Below, piece by piece: positions 50,733 to 55,835 of a stretch of DNA of 64,000 nucleotides. A program made the translations under genes and the position numbers. The DNA is from an uncultured Poribacteria bacterium (GTDB lineage Bacteria; Poribacteria; WGA-4E; PCPOR2b). Position 1 is the stretch's first letter; every line of letters starts with the position of its first letter. The notes under the pieces were generated by a model. It had not been told where the DNA came from. It ran no database searches and saw nothing but the letters and a program-made list of their open reading frames with translations. Where the stretch lies: positions 5,069,266-5,133,265 of the forward strand of contig OY282444.1 in NCBI GenBank assembly GCA_958296125.1, in the 5' to 3' direction.

Positions 50733-50737
50733 AGGGT

Positions 50738-50786
50738 GACAAAATGACGCAGTAATGATAAAATGTATCCATAATGACATTTTGTC
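50738..50786. promoter_or_regulatory. inverted repeat upstream of groESL, candidate activator site
   Basis: GACAAAATG (50738-50746) and CATTTTGTC (50778-50786) are perfect complements about 31 bases apart. A second related piece, TGTCAATATGTCA, follows at 50800-50812. They lie 60-110 bases upstream of the sigma54 promoter, where enhancer-binding proteins usually bind. No CIRCE element (HrcA operator) was seen. Confidence 0.45.
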
Positions 50787-50843
50787 TCAGTTTTAAGTGT
50801 GTCAATATGTCATTGGTAGGCGAATAATCCAGTAATAGCGGGG

Positions 50844-50859
50844 TGGCATATCTATTGCA
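50844..50859 (+). promoter_or_regulatory. sigma54 (-24/-12) promoter of groES-groEL
   Basis: TGGCA at 50844-50848 and TTGCA at 50855-50859, with the key GG and GC pairs exactly 12 bases apart, match the sigma54 consensus TGGCAC-N5-TTGC at all but one position. Transcription would start near 50870, 43 bases before the groES ATG. Neither a sigma70-type pair nor a CIRCE element is visible in the same gap. Confidence 0.75.
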
Positions 50860-50912
50860 CACTGGTTGTATTGTTTCATTGATTTTAACCTTAACGAAAA
50901 GGAGACTGAGAT

Positions 50913-52931: not shown

Positions 52932-53054
52932 CTCTTCCAATAAACCCCATCTTCTTTCCAACCGTTAGTAGTCGCACAATTTATTGTGTGCGCTACACTC
53001 CGATGTTACTGCCTATCCCGCGCTCCCTATCTCCTCCTGAGAAGGACTCAAGAC

Positions 53055-55835
53055 ATGCGCTTGTCATGGAATGAAATCCGTGCCCGCGCCGCCGCATTCG
53101 CTCAGGAATGGGCGGATGCAGGCTACGAAAAGGGGCAAACCCAACTTTTCTACCGCGATTTTTTCGCCATCTTTGATCTGCCCGTGCGCCGGGTTGCCGC
53201 GTTTGAGGAGCCCGTTAAACTGCTCGGCGATCGGCGCGGCTTTATTGACCTGTTCTGGAAAGGGGTGCTCCTCGTTGAGCAGAAAAGTATGGGGCGCAAC
53301 TTAACACAAGCCAAAGCTCAAGCGTTCTCTTACTTCCCCGGTCTCAAGGACACTGACCTGCCGCGCTACCTCCTGTTGAGCGATTTCCAAACGTTTGAGT
53401 TATACGACCTTGACGAGGATGAAAACGTTGCCTTCCCCCTCGCTGAGCTGCCTCAACATATCGAAAAGTTTGGCTTCATCTCGGGTGTGCAGAAGCGATC
53501 CTTCAGGGATCAAGATCCGGTCAATATCGAAGCCTCCGAGCGCGTTGGGGAACTCCACGACGCGCTGGCTGACTCCGGCTATACGGGTCATGATCTGGAA
53601 CAATTCTTGGTCCGCATCGTCTTCTGCTTCTTCGCCGACGACACCGGCATCTTTGAGCCACGCGACATTTTTCTCGATCTGCTAGAGAACCGGACGCGGG
53701 ACGATGGATCGGATCTCGGGGGGTGGCTAGCGCAACTGTTTCAAGTGCTCAACACGCCGGTAGACTGTCGCTCCAGAAACCTTGACGGAGACCTCGCCCG
53801 CTTCCCCTATGTCAACGGTGCCCTATTCCGCGAACCCTTGCTCATCCCGTCATTCGATTCCAAAATGCGTCAGCGGCTGATTGATGCTTGTCATTTTAAT
53901 TGGTCGGACATCTCCCCAGCAATCTTTGGATCGCTCTTTCAGTCAGTGATGGACAAGGAGGAACGCCGCGCCCAAGGCGCACACTACACCACCGAAAAGA
54001 ACATCCTCAAGGTAATTGAACCGCTTTTCCTCGACGAGTTGCGTGCCGAATTCCGACATATCCGAAACCGTCGGGACAACCGTCGCCTCCCCGAACTAAT
54101 CTCTTTTCAGCAGCGACTCGGTCGGTTGCGCTTTTTTGATCCGGCGTGCGGCTGCGGCAACTTCCTGATTATTGCCTACCGTGAGTTGCGAGCGTTGGAA
54201 ATAGAGGTGTTAAAAGAGATTCGTCCGCATGGTCAACTTGACATGCTCGCACAGTCGCTGTCGGTGGTCGATGTGGATGGATTCTATGGGATTGAGTTGG
54301 GGGAGTTTCCCGCGCATATCGCCGAGGTTGCCCTGTGGATGATGGACCACATCATGAACAACCGCCTGAGTTTGGAGTTTGGACAAATCTATGCGCGCAT
54401 CCCGTTGGAGAAGTCGCCGCATATCAGGCACGGTGATGCGCTGGAAATTGATTGGACGGGGCTGCTACCGCCGAAGGAATGTTCCTACGTGCTCGGCAAT
54501 CCGCCGTTTGTGGGGGCGAAGCTCCAATCGCCACAGCAGCGCGAACAGGTGCGAAACATCGCCGCACTGGGCAAAAGCGGCGGCACTCTTGACTATGTGA
54601 CCGCGTGGTTTATCAAGGCGGGTGAATATATCCAACAGAGCGAGACGCAGCTCGGCTTTGTGGCAACCAATTCCATCACCCAAGGCGAACAGGTGGCGCA
54701 GCTGTGGCCCCTTCTGTTTGATCGTTGCAAGCTGGACATCGCCTTTGCCCACCGCACCTTCGCTTGGGGTTCGGATGCCCGCGGCATGGCGCATGTCCAC
54801 GTCGTCATTATCGGATTGGCAAAACGGGGTGCCGCCCCGCGGGAGAAACGGTTGTTTTCCTACGATAGCCCCAAGGGTGAACCACACGAAAGCCTGCACA
54901 CCGCCCTCTCACCCTACCTGTTTGATGCCAGCGGACTGACTGATTCACGGATTGTCGTCAGGGAGGAATCTCGGCAGATCAATGGACTGCCGAAGCTAAT
55001 CGGCGGCTCTATGCCCATTGATGGAGGACACTACATTTTCAAAGCCGAAGAACGCGCTGCGTTTTTGCAAGAGGAGCCCAATGCCGAACCGTATCTGCGG
55101 CCCTTTGTGGGAAGTCGTGAATTTCTACAGGGGGGAGAACGCTGGATACTACGCTTGGCCGACGTGCCGCCCCAAGTGCTGAGGACCCTGCCGAAGGTTC
55201 GTGAGCGTATTGCCGCTGTCCGCGCCTATCGGTTGGCGAGCAAGAGCAAATCCACCCAAGCACTTGCTGAGACACCGACGCTTTACCACGTCAACGTCCT
55301 TCCAGATGCGCCGTTTCTAGTTATACCGGAAGTGAGTTCTGCACGGCGGGAATATGTGCCGATTGGCTGGTTGGAGCCGCCGGTGATTCCGAGCAATAAG
55401 GTGCGCGTACTACCAAACGCCACACTTTGGCAGTTTGGACTTCTTACATCTACAATGCACATGGCATGGGTTAGGAATATTGGTGGGCGACTCAAAAGCG
55501 ACTTTTCATACGGAATTGGCATTATTTACAACACCTTCCCGATGCCTCCTGTCCCTGCGGAACGATTGCAACGTCTCGAACCTTACGCCGATGCCGTCCT
55601 CGCCGCTCGCGCTGCACATCCCGACGCGACCTTGGCTGACCTCTACGACCCCGATCTGATGCCGGTAGCTCTCCGTAGAGCACACCGCGCCTTGGACGGT
55701 GCCGTTGATAAGCTTTACCGGCGTTCGCCATTTTCATCAGACCGTGAGCGGGTTGAGCACCTGCTCAGTTTGTATGAAAAGATGATGGTGCCGTTGGCGG
55801 CGGGTGCTACACCGCGGCGGCGACGGAGGGGATAG
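53055..55835 (+). CDS. MmeI-type (type IIL) restriction-modification enzyme
   Basis: Single-chain restriction enzyme and adenine methyltransferase, 926 residues, very close to MmeI in length (919). The N-terminal PD-(D/E)xK nuclease has Asp65 and Glu75-x-Lys77 (DLFWKGVLLVEQKSMG). A helical segment follows, then the gamma-class methyltransferase with motif I DPACGCGNFL near residue 360 and motif IV NPPF near 482. The C-terminal recognition domain ends with SDFSYGIGIIYNTFPMP, as in MmeI relatives. Such enzymes cut about 20 bp from their site and protect by methylating one strand. The ATG at 53055 follows GAAGGA; the frame opens 23 codons earlier. No DISARM partner genes are present. Confidence 0.88.
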   Translation: MRLSWNEIRARAAAFAQEWADAGYEKGQTQLFYRDFFAIFDLPVRRVAAFEEPVKLLGDRRGFIDLFWKGVLLVEQKSMGRNLTQAKAQAFSYFPGLKDTDLPRYLLLSDFQTFELYDLDEDENVAFPLAELPQHIEKFGFISGVQKRSFRDQDPVNIEASERVGELHDALADSGYTGHDLEQFLVRIVFCFFADDTGIFEPRDIFLDLLENRTRDDGSDLGGWLAQLFQVLNTPVDCRSRNLDGDLARFPYVNGALFREPLLIPSFDSKMRQRLIDACHFNWSDISPAIFGSLFQSVMDKEERRAQGAHYTTEKNILKVIEPLFLDELRAEFRHIRNRRDNRRLPELISFQQRLGRLRFFDPACGCGNFLIIAYRELRALEIEVLKEIRPHGQLDMLAQSLSVVDVDGFYGIELGEFPAHIAEVALWMMDHIMNNRLSLEFGQIYARIPLEKSPHIRHGDALEIDWTGLLPPKECSYVLGNPPFVGAKLQSPQQREQVRNIAALGKSGGTLDYVTAWFIKAGEYIQQSETQLGFVATNSITQGEQVAQLWPLLFDRCKLDIAFAHRTFAWGSDARGMAHVHVVIIGLAKRGAAPREKRLFSYDSPKGEPHESLHTALSPYLFDASGLTDSRIVVREESRQINGLPKLIGGSMPIDGGHYIFKAEERAAFLQEEPNAEPYLRPFVGSREFLQGGERWILRLADVPPQVLRTLPKVRERIAAVRAYRLASKSKSTQALAETPTLYHVNVLPDAPFLVIPEVSSARREYVPIGWLEPPVIPSNKVRVLPNATLWQFGLLTSTMHMAWVRNIGGRLKSDFSYGIGIIYNTFPMPPVPAERLQRLEPYADAVLAARAAHPDATLADLYDPDLMPVALRRAHRALDGAVDKLYRRSPFSSDRERVEHLLSLYEKMMVPLAAGATPRRRRRG

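Follow-up and report, generated by a model that had tools for sequence, protein, structure and literature searches.

A sigma54-type promoter box with upstream palindromes at groES-groEL and other chaperone genes of Poribacteria

Heat-shock genes in bacteria are usually controlled by a dedicated sigma factor, or by repressors such as HrcA, and any sigma54 promoter requires an enhancer-binding protein (EBP). In Myxococcus xanthus, lonD is under the control of HsfB-HsfA (Ueki and Inouye 2002, as cited in PMC9109919). Predicted sigma54 promoters have been reported in Planctomycetota and Bacteroidota at groES, groEL, ibpA, grpE, dnaJ and dnaK (PMC12316311), and that survey credits the sigma54-dependence of some such chaperone promoters to a Blattabacterium genome paper. 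The hrcA-grpE operon of Chlamydia trachomatis has a sigma54 promoter (PMC7482065, PMC8762339), and groESL3 of Bradyrhizobium japonicum is RpoN-dependent (PMC4842269). At norVW of E. coli, three NorR enhancer sites act as the scaffold on which a higher-order EBP oligomer forms (PMC2941729). A search of the open-access literature found no paper combining 'Poribacteria' and 'sigma54'.

The groES-groEL control region

The window, by which we mean the whole 64,000-nucleotide stretch of DNA analysed, is part of a 5.16 Mb Poribacteria genome contained in a single contig. It includes groES and groEL, preceded by a sigma54-type box and three palindromes (Table 1). GroES gave a single match genome-wide, and GroEL was 82% identical to that of the nearest named record, an uncultured Poribacteria bacterium, on which the phylum assignment is founded. 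Past groEL, positions 52986–55835 hold a 949-aa ORF which, judged from its sequence, resembles a large adenine-specific DNA methyltransferase.

Table 1. Features of the groES-groEL region, with positions in the window
Feature	Position	Strand	Basis
Palindromic site 1, GTGACAAAATGACGC, candidate EBP site	50736–50750 (core 50738–50748)		9 of 13 positions invariant in six same-genus species
Palindromic site 2, ATGACATTTTGTCTC, candidate EBP site	50774–50788 (core 50776–50786)		11 of 13 positions invariant in six same-genus species
Palindromic site 3, GTGTCAATATGTCAT, candidate EBP site	50799–50813 (core 50801–50811)		9 of 13 positions invariant in six same-genus species
Sigma54 -24/-12 promoter box, TGGCATATCTATTGC	50844–50858	+	Near-consensus sequence; genus and order conservation
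Predicted transcription start	50870	+	Inferred from known sigma54 promoter geometry, about 12 bases past the GC of the -12 element
Ribosome-binding site AGGAGA	50900–50905	+	Sequence
groES, 96 aa	50913–51203	+	NCBIfam co-chaperone GroES models
groEL, 544 aa	51237–52871	+	TIGR02348 GroEL, 859 bits (cut-off 582)

The initial annotation had described TGGCAT-N5-TTGCA at 50844–50859, with GG and GC 12 apart and 53 bases ahead of the groES ATG (50913), and this element was found as described; the box as delimited here, TGGCATATCTATTGC, has the same GG/GC spacing of 12 and a gap of 54 bases from its end to the groES start. When the box pattern was allowed up to one mismatch, 8 matches were seen in the window against 5.4 expected, with the groES box the only exact one. 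Judged by count alone, the groES box as a single motif is weak and not above chance. All 15 of its positions were invariant in an alignment of six same-genus species, and the form TGGCAYRN4[TC]TGC was present at each of the 30 groES loci compared, drawn from families f1, f2 and f3 of the same order. The proposal of a sigma54 promoter at groES is supported by this near-consensus box and its retention at 30 of 30 order-level loci, and conservation, which had been named as a check on the proposal, extends to the upstream sites, since both were kept in close and distant relatives.

Upstream of the box, GACAAAATG (50738–50746) and CATTTTGTC (50778–50786) had been paired as an inverted repeat. Both arms are present, but they do not form one element, and a third site (50799–50813) had been missed. 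The arms as first paired correspond to the left part of site 1 and the right part of site 2; a single hairpin or operator with a 31-bp loop was rejected because the arms are the outer parts of two separate palindromes. The palindrome has the consensus rTGhCAwwwTGdCAy (about 13 bp), and three copies are placed inside 74 bp upstream of the groES box. As a single motif it is only mildly above chance by window count, GNCAWWWTGNC giving 7 matches against 2.9 expected. Outside the box and palindromes, 34 of 111 positions were invariant in the same six-species alignment. The box and palindromes together are above chance, given three sites in 74 bp, conservation in genus and order and a genome-wide excess over a control pattern. 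It is their conservation that decides against chance, the single motifs being weak.

Two or three palindromes were found upstream of the box at all 30 order-level groES loci, at near-fixed spacing. Three sites were present at groES in family f1 and in most loci of genus g8 of f3, with core starts relative to the box at about -107/-68/-43 and -119/-79/-54, respectively, and one or two elsewhere. In f3 genus g6 the groES loci carried a pair of sites, near -118 and -78, and a pair was also present at the f2 locus read (L028), at -107 and -43. Wherever a groES locus of the order had both site 2 and site 3, the distance between them was 24 or 25 bp. Between the host family and f3-g8 the whole groES array was shifted by 11–12 bp, about one helical turn, and the clpB site was shifted by 11–12 bp between same-genus species. 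Displacement by this amount is expected under a face-of-helix constraint. Testing all site positions for a helical period gave a weak signal (mean vector 0.23; best period 10.5 bp, chosen by scanning), and we therefore draw the helical-phase argument only from the 11–12 bp displacements.

The box-palindrome module at other genes

In the host genome, a box with a palindrome was also found ahead of clpB (L166), hsp20 (L167) and an operon containing a response regulator and dnaK (RR-dnaK, L139). Relatives carry the module before dnaK, grpE-dnaK, clpB, hsp20 and lon, and the identities of the target genes were confirmed by profile matches. The initial proposal of sigma54 control of groESL is supported, but control common to a whole set of chaperone genes had gone unnoticed.

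We searched 58 genomes with the box-plus-palindrome pattern in two gap ranges and obtained 180 and 177 matches, compared with 34 and 19 for a reversed control pattern. Since the control also matches, part of the non-chaperone matches are due to chance. Of the 18 wider-gap matches in the six same-genus genomes, every one was at groES, RR-dnaK or clpB, and each of these three occurred once per genome. The first recognised gene in the loci read was groES in 34, dnaK in 17, clpB in 14, hsp20 in 13, RR-dnaK in 11, lon in 3, grpE in 2 and none of these in 24, a tally that is not an unbiased rate because the loci were partly hand-chosen and some places were counted more than once, and in which the RR-dnaK label of one locus (L249) is based on receiver similarity only.

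Across the loci read, the targets were groES, RR-dnaK, clpB and hsp20 in f1; groES, dnaK, clpB, hsp20 and lon in f3; and grpE-dnaK, hsp20, a dnaK (L481) and a response regulator on its own (L482) in f4, the groES of which was outside the loci read. Outside the order, the module was seen at groES, RR-dnaK, clpB and hsp20 in f5, at groES and RR-dnaK in f7 and at groES in f8, and in another class of the phylum f10 carries it at groES. No match was obtained for G058 (f9) or G068 (f7) in the one gap range searched phylum-wide. Among 79 contigs from other records, none showed the strict module before groEL; loose candidates were found in one Aegiribacteria, one Planctomycetota and one Cytophagales contig.

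A response regulator matching the receiver domain only is present ahead of dnaK in f1, f5 and f7 (L139 924–1418, L361 and L364), and in f4 (L482) the module is followed by such a regulator alone; it is possibly a feedback or phosphate-sink element. What appears to be rsmH (mraW), with cell-division genes, is preceded by a box and one palindrome in three f3 genomes (L256, L268 and L269).

Relatives in f3 also carry the module ahead of anti-phage genes. These are Cas10/Csm1 at L272, ThsB at L370 and L467 (two species), a Ymh-TIR pair at L278 and L475 (likewise two species) and, at L369, a CBASS cyclase that has an AriA/AriB-like gene farther downstream. The control region of the TIR pair is a close copy of that of groES, including the three sites. 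These cases were chosen after inspection from loci without a recognised chaperone gene, and without a matched control, and are therefore a lead rather than a result. It is a tentative and on balance unlikely proposal that one EBP together with sigma54 replaces the heat-shock sigma factor in the folding-stress response of Poribacteria, and that some lineages recruited anti-phage systems (CBASS, Thoeris, TIR and type III CRISPR) into the regulon. If it is true, folding stress or infection would turn on defence via the chaperone promoter.

Candidate regulators and alternative readings

The initial annotation had proposed looking in the genome for rpoN, whose absence would have counted against its reading, and for an EBP; both were found. 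The rpoN gene of the host is full-length and encodes a protein of 568 aa with all three sigma54 Pfam domains (activator-interacting, core-binding and DNA-binding; PF04552, E = 2.6e-57) and the RpoN box, and about 20 PF00158 proteins represent the EBPs. A second RpoN-like protein (457 aa; C1:518910 region, L374 851–2224) has the sigma54 DNA-binding domain only. Near-identical TGGCATGGTAATTGC-like sigma54 boxes were observed at C1:2877593, 2879833, 2884592, 1713927 and 4428790, three of them clustered after an EBP gene, and may constitute a separate sigma54 regulon.

EBP ortholog groups A to D had reciprocal best hits in all five order-level genomes compared. Group A was rejected as the regulator as it had none outside the order, and group B as it had none in G061, a module carrier. 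Reciprocal best hits for groups C (L290) and D (L289) were obtained in eight module-carrying genomes, including G006, G009, G045 and G011 and, outside the order, G061, G065 and G059, and were absent from G063 (64% complete), the comparison having covered only part of the EBP sets of G065 and G063. Group C is an AtoC-like regulator with an intact receiver and usually an adjoining histidine-kinase gene. None of the eight group D sequences aligned has the phospho-accepting aspartate in its receiver-like domain, and in several genomes the group D gene is followed by those for a small membrane protein and a MoxR ATPase. In the host genome (C1) the group D gene is near 3.7265 Mb and the group C gene near 4.269 Mb. 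Groups C and D form a shortlist of candidate regulators, short of an identification. We lean slightly, as a guess, towards group D, since a chaperone-titrated activator would need no kinase. No convincing autoregulatory sites were seen before the EBP genes.

HrcA was detected in every one of the 11 f1 and f2 genomes and not in any of the 47 from f3 and f4, some of which are incomplete. Two operons of the host contain dnaK, one of the sigma54 type and one of the HrcA/CIRCE type; the latter, hrcA-grpE-dnaK-dnaJ (C1:2473044 region, L332 2209–7024), carries the CIRCE-like site TTAGCATTC-N9-GAGTGCTAA. No CIRCE element was found at groES, either in the window or in the 30 loci, and CIRCE control of groES was rejected on this ground.

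The palindromes may alternatively be the operators of a separate stress regulator other than an EBP, either a repressor or an ordinary activator, with the sigma54 box activated from elsewhere. Such a regulator would be in keeping with a lone GTGCCATATTGGCAT palindrome before groES in an Eisenbacteria contig, where there is no strict-form sigma54 box, and with the lack of an experimental or autoregulatory link between any EBP and the palindromes. We nevertheless consider it improbable, as the Poribacteria palindromes are placed 40–200 bp upstream of the box, near-fixed and helically displaced, at every target type, and a sigma54 promoter requires an EBP anyway. A main groESL promoter of the sigma70 type, overlying the palindromes and leaving the sigma54 box an accessory, is suggested by a 10 of 12 match at 50736–50764 and a 9 of 12 match at 50799–50828 (3 matches found against 0.9 expected from shuffles, both strands), a sigma70-like match overlapping sites 1 and 2; tandem sigma66 and sigma54 promoters are, moreover, known at Chlamydia hrcA (PMC7482065). 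However, the -35-like hexamers belong to the palindromes, and the -10-like hexamer falls between sites 1 and 2, in a stretch that is not conserved and varies in sequence and length within the genus. The sigma70 promoter was rejected because this -10 hexamer is not conserved in the genus alignment, and an accessory role for the sigma54 box is very improbable.

The initial annotation had also drawn a comparison with rhizobial nif-linked copies, by which this groESL would be under NifA. Bradyrhizobium groESL3 is listed as RpoN-dependent (PMC4842269), and the window does contain one TGT-N10-ACA match; this match, however, is missing from the five other same-genus species, and TGT-N10-ACA occurs in only 6 of the 30 loci, at varying places. 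The genome has a single GroES match, and the genes having the module in common are chaperones. The comparison was therefore abandoned and NifA control is scarcely credible; neither NifA nor NtrC sites upstream of groES are conserved.

Proposed model and comparison with known systems

The conservation and distribution of the module indicate that groES-groEL is very probably one operon of a Poribacteria chaperone regulon run by sigma54 and one EBP. We infer that groES-groEL is controlled by an enhancer-binding protein, with RpoN-driven transcription, binding of the EBP to the palindromes and activation by protein-folding stress. Sites that lie from tens to about 200 bp upstream, are often several per promoter and are helically displaced would fit EBP dimers acting by looping. 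Sigma54-RNA polymerase would sit in a closed complex on the -24/-12 box, and EBP dimers would bind the 13-bp palindromes upstream, where the three groES sites could seed an EBP hexamer. The EBP would then contact the polymerase via DNA looping and open the closed complex using ATP. If true, a phylum-wide chaperone regulon under an ATP-driven enhancer switch would add another layout of heat-shock control. The presence of two families without detected HrcA beside two having it lets the replacement of such control be studied, and the operator motif allows a direct test of the regulator.

In number and layout the three palindromes at the host groES recall norVW of E. coli, whose sigma54 promoter is preceded by three enhancer sites; NorR, however, answers nitric oxide, and no NorR ortholog was assigned. 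Bradyrhizobium groESL3 is likewise a groESL under RpoN, but is a nif-linked extra copy, whereas the host groES is the only GroES match found and has no conserved NifA site. The Chlamydia hrcA-grpE operon is a chaperone operon bearing a sigma54 promoter; unlike Poribacteria groES, it also has a sigma66 promoter, in tandem with the first and under HrcA/CIRCE, and belongs to a developmental regulon. In Myxococcus, the NtrC-like response regulator HsfA activates a heat-shock gene, and lon is a target in some Poribacteria too; there, however, one published heat-shock gene stands beside secondary-metabolite and pilus genes, whereas in Poribacteria a set of chaperone operons is involved across the phylum. 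The survey of Planctomycetota and Bacteroidota assigns the same classes of chaperone genes to sigma54 by sequence (PMC12316311); in its available text it is a promoter profile survey without a shared operator or a mention of Poribacteria, whereas the Poribacteria module has shared palindromes. Sigma54 or NtrC-like control of single chaperone genes is thus already known, which makes the Poribacteria system a variant.
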